Assembly: GCA_000237975.1 (NCBI GenBank)
Contig: CP003179.1
Coordinates: forward strand, 1,054,001 to 1,118,000
DNA length: 64,000 nucleotides
Origin: Sulfobacillus acidophilus DSM 10332
Lineage (GTDB): Bacteria > Bacillota > Sulfobacillia > Sulfobacillales > Sulfobacillaceae
Direction: 5' to 3'
The notes under the pieces were generated by a model. The model saw only the letters and a program-made list of their open reading frames with translations. It searched no databases and was not told where the DNA came from. Numbering within the stretch: position 1 is the stretch's first letter; every line of letters starts with the position of its first letter. Positions 5,337 to 61,316 of this stretch are shown here, one piece after another. The position numbers were made by a program, and so were the translations under genes.

Positions 5337-6947
5337 GTGGACCATATTTCTTATGCGTACGGCACGAATCATTTTGATCAAGACCAAGAACTAAAAGCGG
5401 TATTACGCCATTTTTGGGCGGACCATAATGTCCATTGGTCGACGCTTTCCCAATTCGGCCAATGGGCAGGCCAAGAGATTTACGAGGCGGTATACCATAT
5501 TGATCATGAGGCGCCTCCCGTCCTGATTGCACATGACCTGGATGGTCAACGCATTGACCGGGTGCGATTGAGCCCGGCGGAAAAACGGATTCTGACGGAA
5601 ACGGCCTGGATTATGGCCTCTCCGTATCAGGGTCAGGGATGGCCTTACCATTATGCTTTACTCTACCTTGTCGGGGATCCGGGAATCGGGTGCATTTTGA
5701 CGATTACCGGCCAAACGGTCTATGCGCTTAATAAATACGCCCAAGGGATCCCAGACCAGGCGCGAATTCAATCGGACCTGTTGTCCGGGAAGGCTTGGGG
5801 GGCGACTTGGATGACCGAGTCGCAAGGCGGAAGTGATCTGGGAGCCAACCAGACGGTTGCCGAACCTCGGGGAGACGTGTGGCTTTTGACCGGCGACAAA
5901 TATTTTGCCAGTGGGGCCGGATTAAACGATTATGCCATTACCACTGCCCGCCCGCAAGGCTTCCCGGCCGGTCCGAAAGGATTGGCCCTCTTTTTATTGC
6001 CGCGCCTTAACCCGAAAGGGACGTTAAATTATCATGTCAGACGCCTCAAAGATAAAAGTGCGACGCGCGCGGTACCTTCCGGGGAAGTCGAGCTGAACGG
6101 CAGCGAGGCTTATCTTATCGGGAATGCCGCCGAAGGAATTTATTACACCTTGGAAAATCTGACGGTATCACGACTGGCCAACGCGGTGGCGGCCATGGCC
6201 ACGGGGAAAAAAGCGCACCTCGAGGTGTTGGGACGGGTGGCCCGGCGAACGAGCTTCGGTCGCTTATTGCGCGACCATCCGCTGATTCGTCGCGACCTAA
6301 CCGACTTGGCGGTGCGATCGGCCGCCGGGCTCGCCTTAACGTTTTATGGGATCGAAAAATTCGATGCCTCTTGGCGGGATCGACCGCCGTATACGGACCG
6401 GTATCATCTCACCCGATTCATCACGCATTTGGCCAAAAATCGGACGGCGGACCATGCGGCGGCGATGACTCAGATGGGCATGGAACTTTTTGGGGGACTG
6501 GGGTTTTTAGAAGAATATGCCGTGGCCCGTTGGCATCGAGAAGCCCTGATTACCCCGATTTGGGAAGGCCCCAGTAACATTCAAGCGTTGGACTTTTTGG
6601 AGACGATCCAACGGCACAAGGTGCAGGACTCCTTTTTGGATGACTTGGGAACGCGCTTAGAACGGGCGGGGACGTCGGTCGCCACACAGGCGATGGCCGT
6701 GTTAGAAGAGCGGCTTAGTCGGCTGGCGTCGCTGAACGGACGGGAAGCCCAGTGGTATGCCAAAGATGGCCTGACCGTGATCGCCGATGCCGCTCAAGTC
6801 GCCCTATTGTATAGCATGGCGCAAGACCAAGGGGAGCGCTATGCCAAATTAGCGGAACTTTATGCCGCCCGTTTTTTGGATCATCAGGAATATCCGGCGT
6901 GGGTTGACACCGATCAGGACGTTTGGGGGGGAGAACGTCATGCGTAA
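5337..6947 (+). CDS. Acyl-CoA dehydrogenase, AidB-like
   Basis: Flavoprotein that would oxidise an acyl-CoA at the alpha-beta position. At 536 residues it is longer than standard acyl-CoA dehydrogenases and matches the AidB-like group. Family landmarks are GATWMTESQGGSDLGANQT (FAD/substrate loop), LTGDKYFASGA, the helical RTSFGRLLRDHPLIRRDL segment, and the C-terminal GGLGFLEEYAVARWHREALITPIWEGPSNIQ split across two motifs. The GTG start at 5337 lies 2 nt after the merR stop. It overlaps the remnant of an acyl-CoA ligase, so the operon once encoded activation plus oxidation of an acid. A DNA-alkylation role cannot be excluded, but the context favours catabolism. Confidence 0.85.
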   Translation: MDHISYAYGTNHFDQDQELKAVLRHFWADHNVHWSTLSQFGQWAGQEIYEAVYHIDHEAPPVLIAHDLDGQRIDRVRLSPAEKRILTETAWIMASPYQGQGWPYHYALLYLVGDPGIGCILTITGQTVYALNKYAQGIPDQARIQSDLLSGKAWGATWMTESQGGSDLGANQTVAEPRGDVWLLTGDKYFASGAGLNDYAITTARPQGFPAGPKGLALFLLPRLNPKGTLNYHVRRLKDKSATRAVPSGEVELNGSEAYLIGNAAEGIYYTLENLTVSRLANAVAAMATGKKAHLEVLGRVARRTSFGRLLRDHPLIRRDLTDLAVRSAAGLALTFYGIEKFDASWRDRPPYTDRYHLTRFITHLAKNRTADHAAAMTQMGMELFGGLGFLEEYAVARWHREALITPIWEGPSNIQALDFLETIQRHKVQDSFLDDLGTRLERAGTSVATQAMAVLEERLSRLASLNGREAQWYAKDGLTVIADAAQVALLYSMAQDQGERYAKLAELYAARFLDHQEYPAWVDTDQDVWGGERHA

Positions 6948-49215: not shown

Positions 49216-49311
49216 GGGGGTAGGTGGAGGCTTGGTGCCTTCCCCGGACTTCAAATCCGGTGGCTGGCCTTAGAGGTCAGCGGTGGGTTCGATTCCCACA
49301 TACTCCCGCCA
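49216..49311 (+). tRNA. selC: tRNA-Sec (TCA anticodon)
   Basis: 96 nt including an encoded CCA. The anticodon arm is CCGGA-CTTCAAA-TCCGG with TCA at 49251-49253. A long extra arm (GGCTGGCCTTAGAGGTCAGC region), the T-arm GGTGGGTTCGATTCCCAC and a long acceptor stem (GGGGGTA with TACTCCC, one G-T pair) are the features of bacterial tRNA-Sec. The organism therefore probably decodes UGA as selenocysteine, although no selenoprotein is seen here. The accessory element begins just downstream. Confidence 0.93.
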
Positions 49312-51157: not shown

Positions 51158-52342
51158 CTAAAACGGCAAATCATCCGGCAAGGTCTCATCGGCCTCAGAC
51201 GAATCGTCGGAGGACCGAGCCGCCTGTTGATTCATTTTCCGAAACCGGGCAATCATGGCCTGCTGTTGCCGGATTTGTTGCTGGATCAACCGTTGTTGTT
51301 CCTGAATCAGCCGTTGTTGTTCCTCAATCAAGGCCCGTTGCTCGGGGGCTAAATCGGCCAACGGATCGCCCGGTGGGGTCGGGGATTCGTCGGCGGGGGC
51401 CAACGGCGGTCGCCGTTGAATGCTCCGCACAATCCCCAAAATGCGATCTTGCCGGGGATCTAAGTGCCGGTCAGGATACCGAGGGTTCGCGGCCCGCAAA
51501 ATCCACTGGTCTTCCTCCCAGCCCGGCTCTCGCATCAGCCACTTCAAGGTTTGTTCGCCGTCCACGAGGGCCACGACCAGCGTCTTGGGCGGTACATCCC
51601 GCCACGCAGGAACTTGTTCCACGACGACGACATCCCCCTCATGAATCCCGGCCCCGATCATACTATCCCCATGCACTTCCACGGCGTAATCGCCCGGCTC
51701 CCCTTGGGGAATCCAAATCTCGCCGCGCCGATCTTCCTGCGCCTCGACGGGAATGCCTGCGACCACGCGGCCCAACAACGGAATCGGGCGCACGGGTAAA
51801 AATTCGCGCAATGGCTTGTCCAACGGATCACGAGATCGAGACGGGGCAGGGGAGGGGCGAAGACCGTTCAGTAAGGCCGTCAACGGCAGGCCAAAGGCTT
51901 TCGCGGCGCGGCTCAAGGCGTCTAAGGGAATGGGATCGCGGCCGGATTCCCACGCAGCCCATGTTTCCGGGACGACTCCCACCTTCTGGGCCACATCGTC
52001 CAACGACCAATGCCGCGTTTCGCGGGCATGACGAAGTTTGGTAGCAATAGAAGACCAATTTAGGTTTTGACGATTATTGAGTGCTGAACCAGGTAATGTC
52101 AAAGTAGAATTTTCATTTAAACCTTCTTCCTCTAGGTCAATTCGTCCTAACAAAAAATCTACTGAAACACTTAAAGCCTCAGCTAATCGTGTCAATGCAT
52201 CTGAAGTCGGTTGTCGTGTGTTTTGTTCATACCGACTTATGGTGTTCTGCGTAGTACCAACTAACCTTGCTAATTCTGCCTGAGTTAAACCAAGTTTTTT
52301 ACGAATCAGTTGTAGTCTTTCACCAAAAGAACCGGAGTCCAC
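51158..52342 (-). CDS. CI/LexA-like repressor with two HTH domains and S24 peptidase
   Basis: 394 residues from the GTG at 52342, which is 8 nt from AGGAGG; the GTG at 52351 overlaps that site. Domain order: XRE helix-turn-helix (about 5-65, LTQAELARLVGTTQNTISRYE), linker, second XRE domain (about 97-158, WSLDDVAQKVGVVPETWAAWE), then an S24 peptidase. The peptidase has a candidate Ala-Gly cleavage site at 195-196 (RVVAGIPV), Ser227 in GDSM and Lys267 in TLKW. A C-terminal Gln-rich coiled coil with heptads LIxEQQR follows. RecA-stimulated self-cleavage would induce the element. Divergent from a Cro-like gene. Confidence 0.87.
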   Translation of the reverse strand: MDSGSFGERLQLIRKKLGLTQAELARLVGTTQNTISRYEQNTRQPTSDALTRLAEALSVSVDFLLGRIDLEEEGLNENSTLTLPGSALNNRQNLNWSSIATKLRHARETRHWSLDDVAQKVGVVPETWAAWESGRDPIPLDALSRAAKAFGLPLTALLNGLRPSPAPSRSRDPLDKPLREFLPVRPIPLLGRVVAGIPVEAQEDRRGEIWIPQGEPGDYAVEVHGDSMIGAGIHEGDVVVVEQVPAWRDVPPKTLVVALVDGEQTLKWLMREPGWEEDQWILRAANPRYPDRHLDPRQDRILGIVRSIQRRPPLAPADESPTPPGDPLADLAPEQRALIEEQQRLIQEQQRLIQQQIRQQQAMIARFRKMNQQAARSSDDSSEADETLPDDLPF

Positions 52343-52378
52343 TCGAACCACCTCCTAACCAGCTACCCCCAAAATATA

Positions 52379-52498: not shown

Positions 52499-52729
52499 GT
52501 GAATTCCAAATTGAAAACGACCAGAAAACGCATTGGAATATCCCAAATGGATTTATCTCACAAAACCGGAATTTCTCAGGGATATTTAGCAAGACTCGAA
52601 CGCGGCACCCGCCGGGGCAGTATCGCCGTCTACGCCCGACTAGCCCATGCGCTGGGCGTGCCGATCCAAGAGATTTTGCCCCTTGATGACGCGCTGGAAC
52701 AGGAGGCCCACGATGTCTACGAATCCTAA
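52499..52729 (+). CDS. Cro-like XRE regulator
   Basis: 76 residues consisting of one helix-turn-helix domain (RKRIGISQMDLSHKTGISQGYLARLERGTRRGS cited in part) plus a short acidic tail. The GTG at 52499 lies about 10 nt after GGTGG. It is divergent from the two-domain repressor and first in the rightward operon, the position of Cro in lambdoid switches. Confidence 0.78.
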   Translation: MNSKLKTTRKRIGISQMDLSHKTGISQGYLARLERGTRRGSIAVYARLAHALGVPIQEILPLDDALEQEAHDVYES

Positions 52730-53564
52730 CGCAATGACATTTGGCAAAAAACCCCAGGGCGGGTTCCGGGAACCCATGCCCTTGACCGATCTCCTCGAAC
52801 CCGCCGTGGCCGAAGGACCCTTGCCGGTAGGGAACTGGAGTCCCAGCCGTCTCTTAGACTGGCTCCTCTGCCCGGCACGGGGGGCTTGGAGTTGCGGCGT
52901 GTGGGAATTGCCTGCCGAATTTGAATGGCCCGCGAACCCGGATGCACAGGTCGGCGTAGCAACGCATCGCTATGCCGAAGCTCGCCTCAACGGAGCATCC
53001 GTGGACGAGGCCCGCATCGCCGGCGCCGATGCCGCCTTGGACACCGATCCGGAAGAATGGCTGCCCTTGACCGACCTGTGGGAAACGGCCATTCGCCCTG
53101 CTATCGGCACCCCCCAGGCGACCGAACAACGCTTGGTGCTGACGCTTGACGGCCTGCCAGTGACCTGCGTCTTAGACGTGATCGATGAAGTCGGAACCAT
53201 CCGCGATCTTAAAACCACCAAACGCAAGCCGAATCCCATCGACATCGCCCGCAAATCGTTGCAGGCTCCGCTCTATGTAGCAGCGTGGCGGCAAGAAACC
53301 GGAGAGGCCGCGCCCTTTGTACTCGATTACCTCATTCGCAACAAGACACCCCAAGCATTGACGCTACCCGTTCCGGTAACCGAGGCCAGCATCGACCGCG
53401 CGCGGCGGCAACTGTCGTGGGCGCAAGAGCAAGCCGACAACCCCGATAGTATTGTGCCCAATCCCTATACCGCCTATGGCTGCACAGGTTGCCCATTTGT
53501 CCGGGTGTGTGCCGACCAATGGGGCTTTCCGCATCCCGAGACGGTCACGGCTGAGGCCCCCTGA
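52713..53564 (+). CDS. PD-(D/E)XK nuclease, Cas4/RecB-like, with predicted Fe-S cluster
   Basis: 283 residues. The nuclease core is VTCVLDVIDEVGTIRDLKTTKR (Asp ... Asp-x-Lys). One Cys lies N-terminal (LDWLLCPARGAW near residue 50) and three C-terminal (GCTGCPFVRVC near 265), the spacing of the 4Fe-4S clasp of Cas4/AddB-type nucleases. AGGAGG with 6-nt spacing sets the ATG at 52713, overlapping cro. No cas1, cas2 or CRISPR repeats are near, so the likely role is phage-type recombination or end resection. Confidence 0.8.
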   Translation: MSTNPNAMTFGKKPQGGFREPMPLTDLLEPAVAEGPLPVGNWSPSRLLDWLLCPARGAWSCGVWELPAEFEWPANPDAQVGVATHRYAEARLNGASVDEARIAGADAALDTDPEEWLPLTDLWETAIRPAIGTPQATEQRLVLTLDGLPVTCVLDVIDEVGTIRDLKTTKRKPNPIDIARKSLQAPLYVAAWRQETGEAAPFVLDYLIRNKTPQALTLPVPVTEASIDRARRQLSWAQEQADNPDSIVPNPYTAYGCTGCPFVRVCADQWGFPHPETVTAEAP

Positions 53565-53659
53565 GCCGTGGCCGCCCCCGGATGGGGGCCGGGGGGATTC
53601 CCCGGACATGGTGCAACGCACACACGACCCTATAACAACACGAGAGGAGCATGAATCCT

Positions 53660-54358
53660 ATGGCAACAGTACCAGAAACGACTCGTACCATTACCAACGT
53701 TCCTGCTTTACCCGACATCCAAGATTTTCCGGAAGCGGATTTGCGTCCAGAAGTCTACCGGATTAAGGCCAAGGCATTTGAAGGCGAGACCGAAACCATC
53801 CAAGCCATGAGCGGCGTCATTCTCGCCATTCGTCCCTCGCGGTGGTACGCCATCGACAACGACGCGAATCCCGACGAACGCCTCACCGTGTGTGAGTTAG
53901 CCGACCCCGCGCATGGCCTGTGGCGGCTGGACCCCGCCCTCCGCGAGGATAGCCCCACGGAACTGCGGGATTGCGCGACCTGCCCGATGAACCGGTATCG
54001 GACGGCCTCCAACGGACGAGGCAAGGCGTGCCGTGAAAAGCGCCTCCTGCTGTTTCTTCGCGACGGCGAATACCTGCCCATCGTCGTCGCGGCCCCGCCA
54101 ACCAGTTTACGGTCGGTCGCCCGATTCACCACTCGCGCAGCGGCTCGCCGCCTGCGCCTCGGGCAACTCCACGTCCGCCTCGCGATTGACACCCAAAAGC
54201 GAGGCCAAGAAGAGTGGGGCGTCTTGCGGATCGAGGAACTGGGCCTATTGGATGAGGCCGCCCAAGTCGACCTGGCCCAACGTCTCCAAGACGGACCGTT
54301 GGCGGACATGTACCGGGCATGGACGGCGATCTTGGCGCACACTGACCGGACCCTATAG
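53660..54358 (+). CDS. Phage-type protein with CxxC...GKACR motif
   Basis: 232 residues. A central motif DCATCPMNRYRTASNGRGKACREKRLLLFL (cited in part) followed by PIVVAAPPTSLRSVARF is shared by a family of phage early proteins usually encoded beside RecB-like nucleases. A role in single-strand DNA binding or recombination is inferred from that context only. The cysteines may bind zinc. Start 53660 is better spaced from AGGAG than the ATG at 53651. Confidence 0.6.
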   Translation: MATVPETTRTITNVPALPDIQDFPEADLRPEVYRIKAKAFEGETETIQAMSGVILAIRPSRWYAIDNDANPDERLTVCELADPAHGLWRLDPALREDSPTELRDCATCPMNRYRTASNGRGKACREKRLLLFLRDGEYLPIVVAAPPTSLRSVARFTTRAAARRLRLGQLHVRLAIDTQKRGQEEWGVLRIEELGLLDEAAQVDLAQRLQDGPLADMYRAWTAILAHTDRTL

Positions 54359-55161: not shown

Positions 55162-55557
55162 ATGGCAAAACGCCGAGATTATGTGATTTGGATGTCACCC
55201 TACTTACGAGAAGTCATCAATCAAGCGGCACAAGCCGCCGGGACGACCGCGCATTTGTGGGCCACGGATGCTTTGCGTCGTGTGTTGTGGATCGCGGTGC
55301 GCCCCAGTTCTGCCGCGCTCGCCCGCGCCGCCGAGAGCTTCGAGGCCGACGCCAAAATTGCCGTTATCAGTCCGAACTTGACCCGAGCGGAATGGGATCG
55401 CCACGCAAGCTGGGCGCGACAGCGAGGCATTCCCGTAGCCTGGCACTTGCGCCAGGTCTTGGCCTGGGCGGCCCGGCACCCCGATGCCATCCCGCGTCCG
55501 GATACGCAGATCTTTGTGCCGCTCCAAGTAGCTCGACATGGGGGGCAGTCGTCATGA
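55162..55557 (+). CDS. Unknown protein preceding helicase
   Basis: 131 residues, helical (YLREVINQAAQAAGTTAHLW ...). Not recognised. It starts 6 nt after the AT-hook-like gene and ends overlapping the helicase start (ATGA), so it is an integral part of the operon. Confidence 0.55.
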   Translation: MAKRRDYVIWMSPYLREVINQAAQAAGTTAHLWATDALRRVLWIAVRPSSAALARAAESFEADAKIAVISPNLTRAEWDRHASWARQRGIPVAWHLRQVLAWAARHPDAIPRPDTQIFVPLQVARHGGQSS

Positions 55558-57629
55558 GTTCGATACCCCTGCGTCCTTATCAACTTGCGGCGCTTGAAGC
55601 CGTCGAAACGGCCTACCGTCAAGAAATCAAACGGCCAGTCGTATCAATGCCAACCGGAACCGGGAAAACTATTGTGCTAGCAGAATTGTTACGCCGACGA
55701 AAACAGACCGCGCTTGTTTTAGCCCACCGCGACGAACTCGTGCGGCAAGCCGCCGAGAAAATCCACCAGGTCTGGCCGGAGGCCCACGTCGGCATCGTCA
55801 AAGGCGCCGAGGATGAGTGGCAGGCCCCGGTAGTCGTTGCCAGTGTCCAATCGCTCCACTCCAAGCGACTCCATCGCTGGGCGCAGAACCAATTTCAGAC
55901 CATTATCATCGACGAATGTTTTCCGGCGGGAACCCTCGTGGAGGGGCGTCCTATCGAAACTTGGCGGCCCGGCGACATCATACGGGCTTACGATCCCGAA
56001 ACGAACCGGTGGGCATCGGTTTTAGTGACCGGGACACATCGCCGCTCAACCCGCGAGTTAATGGAAATTACGTTAGAATCCGAAGTTCTCCGGTGCACTC
56101 TCAATCACCCATTTTATACTCGCGAAGGATGGATCGAAGCCGAATTTTTGCAAGCCGGGGATTGGGTCTTAGGCGAATCGGGGTGGATCGCGGTTCAAAA
56201 CGCGACCCCGCTGAGCCTGAGTACCCCGGTGGATGTGTTCAACTTAGATGTAGATACCCCGCATACGTACTTGGTCGGACAGGCCGGGCTTGTTGTCCAC
56301 AATTGCCATCACGCCCCCGCTCCTAGCTATCGTAAAATTCTGGAATATTTATCGCCTGATCTCTTACTCGGGGTGTCGGCCACCCCGTTTCGGAAAGATT
56401 TGACATCGCTGACCACGGTATTTGACCAAATTGTCTATAGCTATGGCATTCGCGAGGCGATCCAGGATGGATGGCTCGTCGATATCCGGGCCGTCCGCGT
56501 CGAAGGCCAGGCCGACTTGGACGACGTGGCGACCCGAGGCGGGGATTTTGTCGAAGGCCAATTGCAAACGGCCTTGAATTCCCCCGCTCGGAACGCCCTC
56601 ATCGTCGAGGCGTACCAAACCCATGCGCCCGGTACCAAGGCGATTGTGTTTACCGCCGGAGTGCAACATGCCCATGATCTTGCCCGCGCCTTTCAAGACC
56701 ACGGTATTGTAGCAACAGCAGTCGATGGGGGGATGTCGTTAGACGAACGGCGTGCGCGATTTCGAGCTTTTCATGAAGGGCATTTTCGCATACTTGTCAA
56801 TGCTCAGTTGGCAACCGAGGGCTATGATGAACCCACCATCGAAACCGTGATTTTGGCTCGCCCGACCAAATCCTTGGCCCTTTTCACCCAAATGGTCGGG
56901 CGCGGAACCCGCCCCTCGCCCGGCAAAACGGCGATGACGCTCATCGATGTGGCCGATAATACCCGGCGGCACAAACTGATTACGTTGGCCGATCTCATTG
57001 GCTTGCGACGCCCGCTCAAAGCCGGGGAAACCGTGGCCCAACGCATCGCCCGCGAAACCCAGATCCCCGCGAACGCGGAACACTGGCTCGAACAGTGGAG
57101 TCCGCTCACCATCATGTCCGAAGAGGTTCCATCCCTTTACCTTGATCTGGTCGATAGCGCGGCCCCGGCCCTCGATTGGCGGGATATTCGGGCCGAACTC
57201 GACGATATCATGGCCGATGCGGACGACCTCCGAGGAGCGATTCGCCGAGCGGCCCGCCTGATGCAAAATCCCATCGGATCCAGCACCGACGCCCAACGCC
57301 ATCGATTACAGGAATTTGGCTGGCCGGACGCGGAAACGGCTCGCTTACCGAAATGGGCCGCATCGTATGCCTTGGACCGCCATCGCACCGTGCTGGCGGA
57401 GTGGGCCGCGGGCCGGGTTCGCCAATGGGCCAAGCTCGTGGGGGCGGATCACGATCAACTGAGCCAAATGATGACCCAAGAATTGTGGCATTACACGCCC
57501 GCCACCGCCAAGCAACAACACCTCTTGCGTCGATTAGGCACACCCGCCGATATCGTCATCACGCTTACGAAGGGGGAAGCCGCATGGCTCATCGATCAGA
57601 TGCTAGCAAAAAAGGCGCAAACCGTCTGA
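55554..57629 (+). CDS. SF2 DEAH-type helicase interrupted by a mini-intein
   Basis: 691 codons; 562 residues after splicing. Motifs: Q-like RPYQLAALEAV, Walker A PTGTGKT (33-39), Ia LAHRDEL, Walker B IIIDE|CHH split by the intein, III GVSATPFRKD, and VI QMVGRGTRPSPGK. It belongs to the UvrB/RecG-like SF2 helicases common in phages. The intein sits between Glu121 and Cys251. A 250-residue C-terminal extension after motif VI is unrecognised. Together with the primase and DUF927-like protein it forms the replication module. A longer open frame upstream has no ribosome site. Confidence 0.88.
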   Translation: MSSIPLRPYQLAALEAVETAYRQEIKRPVVSMPTGTGKTIVLAELLRRRKQTALVLAHRDELVRQAAEKIHQVWPEAHVGIVKGAEDEWQAPVVVASVQSLHSKRLHRWAQNQFQTIIIDECFPAGTLVEGRPIETWRPGDIIRAYDPETNRWASVLVTGTHRRSTRELMEITLESEVLRCTLNHPFYTREGWIEAEFLQAGDWVLGESGWIAVQNATPLSLSTPVDVFNLDVDTPHTYLVGQAGLVVHNCHHAPAPSYRKILEYLSPDLLLGVSATPFRKDLTSLTTVFDQIVYSYGIREAIQDGWLVDIRAVRVEGQADLDDVATRGGDFVEGQLQTALNSPARNALIVEAYQTHAPGTKAIVFTAGVQHAHDLARAFQDHGIVATAVDGGMSLDERRARFRAFHEGHFRILVNAQLATEGYDEPTIETVILARPTKSLALFTQMVGRGTRPSPGKTAMTLIDVADNTRRHKLITLADLIGLRRPLKAGETVAQRIARETQIPANAEHWLEQWSPLTIMSEEVPSLYLDLVDSAAPALDWRDIRAELDDIMADADDLRGAIRRAARLMQNPIGSSTDAQRHRLQEFGWPDAETARLPKWAASYALDRHRTVLAEWAAGRVRQWAKLVGADHDQLSQMMTQELWHYTPATAKQQHLLRRLGTPADIVITLTKGEAAWLIDQMLAKKAQTV
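55917..56303 (+). other. Mini-intein (129 residues) in the helicase Walker B box
   Basis: Begins with Cys (CFPAGTLVEGRPI, block A), has block B TLNHPFYT with the Thr-x2-His catalytic pair, block F VDVFNLDVDTPHTYLV and block G GLVVHN, followed by Cys+1 of the extein. No homing-endonuclease domain (no LAGLIDADG or HNH motif) lies between blocks B and F. The host site IIIDE/CHH is rejoined exactly as a DECH box. All splicing residues are intact, so it is probably active. Confidence 0.9.
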
Positions 57630-57763: not shown

Positions 57764-58909
57764 ATGACAACAAGACCTCGAATGCCTTCATCTAATCATG
57801 TTTCGGGCCTCTCGACCCCGGATGTGCGCACAACCTGGGCGTGGCTGTTTGACGGTCATCACGCCGTCGAAATGCGGGTTCTGACGGCCCACGGGCCGCG
57901 CATTGGTCGGTTTACCCGCGAGGATGCCTTTGTCCGCGCTGTGCGGCAAGCGCAGGCTAACCCCACCGCCACGGGCATTTATGCGACGCTGAATCCGATT
58001 GTGACCGATGCCGTCTGGACGGCTCCGTGGAACGTGCTAACGCGCAGCCCCCGAGCCGCCGCCGACCGGGATATCGTGGCGCGGCGATGGCTGTTAATCG
58101 ACATCGATCCCATCCGTCCGCCGCACACGAATGCGACGACTTTGGAACGCCATGCCGCGGCCCGTGTCGGGCAACGCCTTGTCGAAGGCTTGCGCGCATT
58201 AGGCTGGCCGGACCCCGGCGTCGCCACATCGGGCAATGGCATTCACCTGCTCTATCGCATCGATTGGCCGAATACTGTTGCAACCACAACCCAGGTTCGG
58301 CGGATTCTGAGCCTTTTAGCTCAACGGTTCAACACGCCCGACGCCGCCGTGGACGAAAGCGTATACAACGCGGCCCGCATCACCAAAGTGTATGGCACCA
58401 CACCCCGCAAAGGCCCGGCCACGCCCGACCGTCCGTGGTGGTCGGCCCGGATTCTCCGGATTCCGCGTCACTGGATGACCGTGACTGCCGATCACGTGAC
58501 CGCCTTGGATCTCTGGGCTACCCCGTCCCTGAATGCCCTGCCATCCCGAAACGGGAGCGTCTCGCGCCCCCGGCTCTTTGCCACTTCGGACGGCCTCGAC
58601 CGGTTGATCCACTGGTTATCCCAACGCGGTCTGACGCTCGCAGGCGATCCTCGACCGTTGACGGGTGATGAGGGATGGTTGATTCCCCTCGTCTGTCCGT
58701 GGGAGGCCGAGCATACGACACCATCAACGCCGACGGCCACCGCCGTCTTGTGGTTTCCCGATGGGCGCATCGGCTTTCGATGCTTTCACGCGCATTGTAC
58801 GCATCGCACGATCCGCGACATCTGGCGAGTGACCGGTACGCCTTATCCGTCATTCTCAACGAAAGGAGGGCCATCGCATGATGCCCCAGGATCATCCCAC
58901 GTTAAATGA
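57764..58909 (+). CDS. Archaeo-eukaryotic-type primase with zinc motif
   Basis: 381 residues. The AEP core is visible: RRWLLIDIDPIRP (catalytic Asp pair, 113-115), SGNGIHLLYRID (156-167) and DESVYNAARITKVYGTTPRKG (about 197-217, with basic triphosphate-binding residues; cited in two parts). The C-terminus has a probable zinc site: CPWEAEH ... CFHAHCTH. It would synthesise primers for the element's replication, working with the DUF927-like ATPase encoded directly downstream with a 32-bp overlap. Confidence 0.78.
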   Translation: MTTRPRMPSSNHVSGLSTPDVRTTWAWLFDGHHAVEMRVLTAHGPRIGRFTREDAFVRAVRQAQANPTATGIYATLNPIVTDAVWTAPWNVLTRSPRAAADRDIVARRWLLIDIDPIRPPHTNATTLERHAAARVGQRLVEGLRALGWPDPGVATSGNGIHLLYRIDWPNTVATTTQVRRILSLLAQRFNTPDAAVDESVYNAARITKVYGTTPRKGPATPDRPWWSARILRIPRHWMTVTADHVTALDLWATPSLNALPSRNGSVSRPRLFATSDGLDRLIHWLSQRGLTLAGDPRPLTGDEGWLIPLVCPWEAEHTTPSTPTATAVLWFPDGRIGFRCFHAHCTHRTIRDIWRVTGTPYPSFSTKGGPSHDAPGSSHVK

Positions 58910-61316
58910 TCTGGAGACCCAAGTCGCGCAATGGTTGATTAACCGGGATCAATTCGAGGCGTGGCTCCGAGACATCGAAACCCGATTGCAACGGGACCTG
59001 AGTGATTTTGTCCAAGACAAGACGATCCCGACCGTGATCGCAGTCTTAGCCTTGGACGCGCCGGGCCTTTTCGCCCTGTGGGATCAAGCGATGCAACGGT
59101 GGAAAAAGGCCATGCAATGGCCCTCAGAATCGTGGCGACGATGGCACCAGGGGATTCGCCAACGCATTCACGCTTTGGAAGCCGACCGTGCGGCGGCCCA
59201 ACGCCACCAACAAGCGGAGGCCGAACGCCAAGCCCAGGACACGGCGTTGCAACAGTTTTGGGAAAACGGGCCATTGATTATCAAACAACAAGGTCTCGAT
59301 CAGTACATGCAACAAGTCTGCGATTTGGTGACTCGGTGGGGGCGAGCCATCTGGGATCATGACCGCATGCGCGGAGCCTTGATTGTGGCCCGCGCCCAAT
59401 GGCCCGACCACCCGGGGTGGTCAGCCGTTGATCGCGCCTTCAAGCGACACAAAAATTGGACCGAAACGGATCAGCGGACCTGGCTCGACGCGGCCAAACG
59501 CTATCGGGCGGAACGCGACAAATCCTCCGGCGATGTCATTCCGATCCGCCCCGGTGTCGTGCCGACATCGCCCCCGTCATTGACCGTGGGGCAAGTCTGG
59601 CCGACCGCGCCCGATCCGGACTTATTGTTGCCAGATAAATATCTGTACGCCCCGGATGGCGTTCATGTCGGCCACGAGGATGACGATCCCGAATTTATCC
59701 TCGGCCCGGCTTATGTGTGGATGTGGTACGAAGATGTGGTGACGCATGATCACTGGATTCGGATTCGGTACTGGACTAACGGGCGATGGGCCGACCTCCT
59801 GACCAGCCCGTCCCAATTGCTCGATCCGCAAACGGTCGCGACCTTTGCGGATAAAGGGCTGTTTATTCGGAATCCGAAAAAGGCCGGTTCATATCTCAAC
59901 GATACGTTTAATGCGCTCAAAACCCAAATGGGTCACGCCGCACATAGCCTGAGCACGATGGGATTTACCACGTTGCCCGATGGCCGGACGATCTTGGTCT
60001 TGCCGAACACCCCGGCCCGTGGAGGCGATCCGCAAGATCCCCCAATCACCACGCTGGTCGATCCGAGTGTGCGGTTTGTGCATGCGGTGCGCCCTGATTT
60101 TTCGGCAAGCGATGCCGGGGCGACTGTGGCGCGGACTGTCTTTCATCACCTCTGGGCTCTCGCGCCGGCCTCCGTCCTTATTCCCGTCTTGGGCTGGTTT
60201 TGGGCGAGCCTCTGGGCCGACCGCATTCGAGACACGACAGGAACCCGTCAATTTCCCATATTGTCCGTGTTCGCGGCCCGAGGCACCGGAAAAACCACGT
60301 TGCTCACGATGATCTACCGAGCCTTGTGGGGGGATGGGGAAGTCCATAGTGCCAGCATGACGCCTTTTGCGTTAATCAAAAATCTCGCCGCCACGTATAC
60401 CATGCCATTGTTCTTGGATGAGTTTCGCCCCGGCGAAATGGCCGAAGGACAGGAGCGAAAGTTTTATCAACTGCTCCGGCAAAACTTTAACGGCCAATCC
60501 GAACAACGCGGAACCGCGAGCCAAAAAATCCAAACCTATCCGTTGATTGCCCCCGTCATTTTAGCGGGGGAAAGCCGCCCCACGGATAGCGCCGTCTTGG
60601 ATCGATCCGTGCTCGTGACCTTAACCCACGACATGACGCATCGCCCCGAGGCTCGCCCCGCTTTACAATACCTGCACACGCACGCCGACCAGATGCGGCA
60701 AGCGGCAGGCTGGATTTTAGATCAACGGCTGACGCAATCCTCGGCCTATGATGCCGAGACCTTGCGGGCGGAATTTGAGGCGTATGAAAAATATTTATGG
60801 GAACTCGTGCATGCCCACCAATTCCTCTTGCCCGACCGGGCGGTCTGGAGCCTCGCGGTCGCATTGTGGGGGTTCGTCTGGGGGAAAGCGTTGGGGTTGG
60901 TTCCCGAGGACATTGTTCTCGACGAAGCCATCGCCCTGGATCTGCTGCGTCAGGCTGAATTGCAACGCCGGGCCGAAGAGCCGGTCGATCATTTTGTCCG
61001 GTTCGTCGAAGAATTGTGGGGCCTGCAAGGACGCAGCCCCGCCGGCGACATCCCGCTGGGCGTTAAACCGGGCGCCGAAATTCGGTTGCCCCGAACCCTA
61101 ATGGAATCTGCGTGGGATTTGTGGTGTCGCGACCACAAGCTCCCTCGATTGGGCCGGGACAACTTACTCCAAGAATTGCGCAAGATTCCGGGGTTGCTGA
61201 TCGCGGATAATCAAGTAGTTTGGATTCAAGACAAAACTTATCGATGTTATGTTCTCTCCATTCCTGTTTTACACAATCGTTATGGATTACCCCCAGAAGT
61301 TTGGGGACTCGATTAA
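58878..61316 (+). CDS. DUF927-like primase-helicase ATPase
   Basis: 812 residues. The N-terminal 230 are helical and unassigned. Residues about 236-345 form a DUF927-type N-domain (LTVGQVWPTAP ... FADKGLFIRNPKKAGSYLND). The ATPase follows: Walker A ARGTGKTT (Gly469, Lys472), Walker B MPLFLDEFRPGEM, and a sensor region VILAGESRPTDSAVLDRSV. AAAGGAGGG precedes the ATG. Probably the replicative hexameric helicase of the element. It is the last gene of the early operon, ended by an unusual triple-repeat terminator. The N-domain recurs in the Bro-N protein downstream. Confidence 0.78.
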   Translation: MMPQDHPTLNDLETQVAQWLINRDQFEAWLRDIETRLQRDLSDFVQDKTIPTVIAVLALDAPGLFALWDQAMQRWKKAMQWPSESWRRWHQGIRQRIHALEADRAAAQRHQQAEAERQAQDTALQQFWENGPLIIKQQGLDQYMQQVCDLVTRWGRAIWDHDRMRGALIVARAQWPDHPGWSAVDRAFKRHKNWTETDQRTWLDAAKRYRAERDKSSGDVIPIRPGVVPTSPPSLTVGQVWPTAPDPDLLLPDKYLYAPDGVHVGHEDDDPEFILGPAYVWMWYEDVVTHDHWIRIRYWTNGRWADLLTSPSQLLDPQTVATFADKGLFIRNPKKAGSYLNDTFNALKTQMGHAAHSLSTMGFTTLPDGRTILVLPNTPARGGDPQDPPITTLVDPSVRFVHAVRPDFSASDAGATVARTVFHHLWALAPASVLIPVLGWFWASLWADRIRDTTGTRQFPILSVFAARGTGKTTLLTMIYRALWGDGEVHSASMTPFALIKNLAATYTMPLFLDEFRPGEMAEGQERKFYQLLRQNFNGQSEQRGTASQKIQTYPLIAPVILAGESRPTDSAVLDRSVLVTLTHDMTHRPEARPALQYLHTHADQMRQAAGWILDQRLTQSSAYDAETLRAEFEAYEKYLWELVHAHQFLLPDRAVWSLAVALWGFVWGKALGLVPEDIVLDEAIALDLLRQAELQRRAEEPVDHFVRFVEELWGLQGRSPAGDIPLGVKPGAEIRLPRTLMESAWDLWCRDHKLPRLGRDNLLQELRKIPGLLIADNQVVWIQDKTYRCYVLSIPVLHNRYGLPPEVWGLD

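Follow-up and report, generated by a model that had tools for sequence, protein, structure and literature searches.

A putative 129-residue mini-intein in the Walker B motif of a Sulfobacillus acidophilus helicase, and candidate overlapping-frame endonucleases in its full-size relatives

The helicase gene and its host element

The window, i.e., the whole stretch of 64,000 nucleotides of Sulfobacillus acidophilus DSM 10332 that was analyzed (contig CP003179.1, positions 1,054,001 to 1,118,000), carries on its plus strand the gene of an SF2 (RadD/ResIII-like) helicase precursor of 691 aa (55554..57629), with a predicted spliced product of 562 aa. Its ATG at 55554 overlaps the stop of the preceding ORF (55162-55557). 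The helicase was assigned to the DNA helicase family phrog_16 (PHROGs, E 4e-86), and its exteins, which flank an insert, match the Pfam families ResIII (E 6e-30) and Helicase_C (E 5e-16). Alignment with empty-site helicases delimits an N-extein (55554..55916, plus strand), in which the Walker A motif PTGTGKT is read at 55650..55670 and whose last residues are ...IIIDE; the D-E of Walker B (motif II), at 55911..55916, abut the insert. On the other side, sequence and empty-site relatives delimit a C-extein (56304..57629, plus strand) of which the first residue is the Cys+1 of CHHAPAPSYRKIL. With flanks that read ...TIIIDE / CHHAPAPSYRKIL, motif II is thus divided between D-E and C-H-H, in line with an earlier note that had placed the insertion inside DE/CH of Walker B in a phage-type helicase.

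The surroundings are those of a mobile element. Upstream lie a CI/LexA-type repressor with HTH and S24 peptidase domains (51158..52351, minus strand), a Cro-like HTH regulator (52499..52729), a PD-(D/E)XK exonuclease (52647..53564) and a conserved protein of unknown function (53651..54358); downstream lie a primase-polymerase-like protein (57764..58909; weak LigD_Prim-Pol match) and a large P-loop replication protein (58878..61316; weak DNA primase/helicase match), all on the plus strand except the repressor. The exonuclease, the conserved protein and the primase-polymerase-like protein are syntenic in relatives. ParA, two T2SSE-type ATPases, a TraG P-loop protein and an FtsK-like protein are encoded 40-80 kb downstream of the helicase (G000:C1:1157001-1197000, loci L306 and L307), and this gene content suggests an element of integrative conjugative or plasmid-like type whose replication and repressor module is phage-like. 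A simple prophage was also considered and is probably not the right description, given the conjugation-type genes downstream of the helicase module. A tRNA-Sec gene (49216-49311) lies just upstream of the element and is a possible integration site; the stretch searched revealed no exact copy of 18 or more bases of its 3' end, and the element ends were not found.

A 129-residue Hint domain in motif II

The insert (55917..56303, plus strand) comprises exactly 129 codons, starts with CFPAGT and ends with VVHN followed by Cys. Block A is C1-F-P-A-G-T6 (55917..55934), invariant in all 11 mini-inteins of the same-site alignment (A3); block B is T61-L-N-H64 (56097..56108), with T61 and H64 invariant; block F, recognized by sequence comparison, is V107-F-N-L-D-V...H116-T-Y118 (56235..56270), and block G is V127-H128-N129 (56295..56303), also invariant. 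The class 1 splicing set is therefore complete (C1, T61xxH64, H116, H128-N129 and Cys+1), and these residues are invariant or nearly so across the 11 same-site minis. The coordinates, the length and the intactness of the four blocks, as given in the earlier note, all proved exact on re-reading.

Regarding family membership, the domain matched Pfam PT-HINT PF07591 (E 4e-19, 69.6 bits, cut-off 27.7) and the NCBIfam model of the intein C-terminal splicing region (22.2 bits, cut-off 15.6), whereas the NCBIfam N-terminal intein model stayed below its cut-off (17.2 vs 24.5). The AlphaFold2 model is a Hint fold (mean pLDDT 97.7), with 2LWY as top PDB match (TM 0.93), next Tetrahymena BIL2, and then the Mtu RecA, DnaB and gp41-1 inteins. 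The Hint fold spans the whole 129 aa and no endonuclease family was matched in Pfam, in agreement with the claim that the intein has no endonuclease domain. A chance origin of the match is excluded by the family E-values together with same-site homologues at ~40-70% identity.

Occupancy of the site in related helicases

Relatives lacking the insert, with which a comparison had been suggested, do exist: an uninterrupted DE(A/C)HH stands at the insertion point in ~25 related helicases, several of them with a native Cys at +1. They include orthologues in the same gene order. Indeed, the order repressor, Cro-like regulator, exonuclease, orf235, helicase and primase-like gene is common, in whole or in part, to three genomes with an interrupted helicase (G016, G029 and G026, the latter being Sulfobacillus benefaciens AMDSBA1) and to three with an empty site (G021, G017 and G035), hence the helicases are orthologous. 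This intein thus sits exactly in frame within a conserved motif and has homologues free of it. The G016 and G026 inteins are themselves minis, of 130 aa (71-72% identity to the window intein) and 129 aa (52% identity), respectively. Pairwise Nei-Gojobori estimates between the window and G016 gave dN 0.20 and dS 1.23 for the intein (ratio ~0.16) and dN 0.37 and dS 1.44 for the C-extein, values that are approximate given the nearly saturated synonymous sites and the simple method. They indicate that selection keeps both the intein sequence and the C-extein; judged from such codon comparisons, the Sulfobacillaceae mini-inteins are under purifying selection.

Extein and intein trees were in conflict. 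In the extein tree, G026 (mini) was paired with G021 (empty) at 100%, and G016 (mini) was grouped with G029, which has a full-size intein, at 94%, this group adjoining the window helicase at 99%. In the intein tree (FastTree), by contrast, the three Sulfobacillaceae minis formed one clade in 58/60 bootstraps while the G029 intein fell among phage inteins. Occupancy of one orthologous site has therefore switched between none, a mini and a full-size intein unrelated to the minis. The possibility that the window mini is a G029-like full-size intein minus its endonuclease was considered and is not supported by this topology. The sister group of the mini clade varied among bootstraps, being PT-HINT/BIL in 37/60 and helicase inteins only in 22/60. 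The orthologous helicases thus provide a natural series (an empty site, at least two mini-inteins, and a full-size intein whose overlapping endonuclease ORF is intact, see below), which makes the homing cycle of invasion, endonuclease loss and intein loss testable in a small bacterial group. A second intein, of 394 aa, was noted at motif V (NAAVL/C...GN/SEGFDEP) of the minus-strand helicase ORF of G016 (L032), with LAGLIDADG-like stretches seen by eye.

The site is also occupied far beyond this family: in Vibrio, Pseudomonas and Corynebacterium phages and in many IMG/VR contigs. A pattern scan of IMG/VR for DE/CFPAGT gave at least 120 stretches, most of them DE/C...HN/CH in helicase-like proteins; among the matches listed, 100 distinct inteins comprised 12 of <220 aa and 88 of 265-399 aa. 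Minis of 129-153 aa occur at DE/CHH in MAGs of other phyla too, so the size of the window intein is not exceptional. The earlier note had held it to be near the lower size limit known: small it is, being among the smallest at DE/CHH, but it has equals there. Outside the close pair with G016, these are found in S. benefaciens (129 aa), a Synergistales MAG (129 aa) and an IMG/VR contig (130 aa), which rules out a record, and solved splicing-domain chains of gp41-1 and MchDnaB-1 measure 127-130 residues. Two other interrupted helicases were observed: one in an IMG/VR contig (3300020233_000057, L014:2936-7447) apparently contains three inteins, at Walker A, Walker B (DE/CHH) and motif VI, and a related one on plasmid p1 of Alicyclobacillus sp. 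TC (L013), annotated as two genes, has a TnpB-family gene between its halves.

Splicing and its alternatives

Taken together, the sequence and the model make it very probable that the insert is an active class 1 mini-intein, which excises itself and so reconstitutes Walker B of the helicase. The helicase would be made as a 691-aa precursor with a split Walker B; Cys1 would attack the preceding peptide bond (N-S shift), the N-extein would pass to Cys+1, Asn129 would cyclize with the aid of His128, and the exteins would be joined as IIIDE-CHHAPAP to give the active 562-aa helicase. Purifying selection on the Sulfobacillaceae minis argues for this reading of the window insert. Likewise, the conserved C-extein suggests that both helicase halves are needed joined, and conservation of the intein together with the C-extein is consistent with splicing and with a joined product that is functional. 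We infer splicing, efficient splicing and the absence of a regulatory role for this intein. Since it has no homing endonuclease, it would persist by vertical inheritance, recombination and difficult loss from an essential motif, in which only a precise deletion of the insert would be tolerated.

It is unlikely, yet conceivable, that splicing is conditional and that the mini-intein acts as a redox, heat, acid or metal switch holding the helicase off until conditions suit replication, as the earlier note had proposed. The Walker B position implies that the precursor should have no ATPase activity, and a potential partner for Cys1 or Cys+1 is Cys60, which lies beside block B and does not vary among the three Sulfobacillaceae minis; other helicase inteins, e.g., mycobacterial DnaB, have moreover been published as splicing conditionally (PMC6195587, PMC7360933). 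However, the close orthologues hold at DE/CHH nothing (G021, G017 and G035 of the syntenic module), a mini, or an unrelated, endonuclease-bearing intein (G029), so that regulation by the window intein is not conserved, and inteins in NTPase motifs are generally common (PMC5050341), which persistence accounts for equally well. This pattern of occupancy among close orthologues speaks against a replication switch and is consistent with a selfish element at a site from which it is hard to lose.

Cleavage deserves attention because the domain scores as PT-HINT rather than as a standard intein, with a C-terminal third that resembles PT-HINT/BIL, and this counts against splicing as far as profiles go, as does the sub-threshold score of the N-terminal intein model. 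In some BIL domains, cleavage is the main activity. A PT-HINT/BIL-type domain captured recently might cut the helicase in two with no ligation, a reading that we consider quite improbable, even though PT-HINT is its best profile and a bacterial intein-like domain its best structure. When the domain was scored in parts, the last 34 residues were closer to PT-HINT (~32 bits vs 23 for helicase inteins) and the N-terminal 75 residues to helicase inteins (76 vs 56 bits), the latter being evidence against a captured cleaving domain. The same split appeared in 3/3 Sulfobacillaceae minis and in 0/6 of the other same-site inteins tested, the C part being short (34 residues) and the PT-HINT set limited to seven sequences; it hints that the mini clade may be a mosaic splicing domain, with a helicase-intein N part and a PT-HINT-like C part. 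Cleavage is further opposed by the exact insertion between conserved residues, the Cys+1, the full catalytic set, the C-extein conserved under purifying selection and the true inteins at the same site in phages. Finally, a dead or ordinary domain, i.e., a non-splicing insertion tolerated by the helicase, is highly improbable, given that the insert breaks the catalytic DE-CH motif, is absent from orthologues and has preserved every splicing residue at dS >1. An active mini-intein remains the preferred reading, and such a very compact splicing domain is a candidate protein-ligation tool, possibly from an acidophilic, thermotolerant host, as judged from Sulfobacillus relatives.

Candidate overlapping-frame endonucleases in full-size relatives

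In the centre of full-size DE/CHH inteins, no recognized domain was found in the host frame. The +1 frame, however, is open across this centre over ~190-330 codons in 82 of the 88 full-size inteins among the matches listed (L010:2766-3374, L015:4602-5249, L009:2766-3512 and 79 other full-size DE/C inteins), and its ORFs conserve a zinc finger, NPM/RGGNG motifs and a DG.SH nuclease core. Two of them matched DUF559 (E 3e-13 and 4e-12), and a profile of 30 ORFs matched the Vsr-like protein 3HRL (E 3e-10). The model of the L015 ORF (pLDDT 90) had as best fold matches 3HRL (probability 1.00) and the catalytic domain of I-Bth0305I (PDB 3R3P; probability 0.99), with Foldseek E-values of only 0.02-0.04. 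Within the same overlap DNA, 26 columns reached a conservation of 90% or more in the +1 frame vs 3 in the intein frame, and the third position of the +1 frame was the most variable (0.49 vs 0.63 and 0.67); hence the overlap appears dual-coding, with selection mainly on the endonuclease. The +1 frame is thus a candidate for encoding a conserved Vsr/EDxHD-type homing endonuclease, and this layout a candidate general intein architecture, on the evidence of alignments and models. It would explain the absence of a recognized host-frame domain in these centres; the in-frame centre, considered as a new domain, was rejected as a shadow of the +1-frame ORF. The window intein has no such ORF. In G029 (L033, G029:C1:549000-562000), the +1 endonuclease ORF is intact and the intein frame contains a single in-frame TAG (locus positions 6905-6907), in the dual-coding region, which could mean that the helicase is broken, that a split intein is emerging or that the sequence is in error. 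The "fractured genes," in which split inteins flank a Vsr-like endonuclease, represent a related layout.

The broader reading toward which we lean is that DE/CHH inteins would form a widespread phage family with a dual-coding centre, in which the intein frame is merely open and the +1 frame encodes a Vsr/EDxHD endonuclease, while the window clade would be endonuclease-free and mosaic, competing with the homing lineage for the same site in one set of orthologous mobile elements.

Comparison with known systems

Neither mini-inteins as such nor inteins in ATPase motifs are new, the latter being known, e.g., from Walker B of phage terminases (PMC5050341). In the literature library searched, no paper dealt with the DE/CHH site of this helicase or described an intein overlapped by an EDxHD endonuclease in another frame; the overlapping-frame endonuclease is the more novel part, its priority being subject to a 2025 preprint on non-canonical actinobacteriophage inteins, cited in PMC11855218, which may describe such an architecture (10.1101/2025.01.02.630785). 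The nearest parallel to the overlap is ShiLan, where an HNH nuclease is hidden in an insertion of a phage methylase (PMC11855218): there, as in the full-size inteins, an out-of-frame nuclease lies in an insert that is open in the host frame. By contrast, the ShiLan insert has no splicing domain and its nuclease is HNH, whereas full-size DE/CHH inteins are true inteins with a Vsr/EDxHD-like nuclease, and the window mini-intein carries no hidden nuclease. For I-Bth0305I, the EDxHD homing endonuclease whose fold matches the L015 ORF, the PDB annotation is mobile intron protein, while the L015 ORF overlaps an intein.

The phage DE/CHH inteins (Vibrio CP-T1, 1.194.O and K389, Pseudomonas MR14, Corynebacterium phi673 and IMG/VR contigs) share with the window intein the insertion point, the CFPAGT start, the HN/CHH end and the helicase family, but they are mostly of 265-400 aa with a +1-frame endonuclease ORF, neither of which applies to the 129-aa window intein, and the window clade is not confidently nested among them. 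Mtu RecA delta-I, Ssp DnaB mini, Spl DnaX and gp41-1 likewise have a contiguous Hint domain of similar size and fold, in other host genes and at only ~18-24% identity. The closest sequence is that of the Clostridium thermocellum bacterial intein-like domain 2LWY, together with PF07591 (phmmer E 9e-20, ~39% identity), and the structural likeness extends to the same hairpin ahead of the C-terminal HN. PT-HINT domains, however, typically belong to secreted or polymorphic-toxin-type proteins, with varied residues after them, whereas the window domain interrupts an enzyme core within helicase motif II, is followed by Cys+1 and has an N-terminal part that matches helicase inteins.
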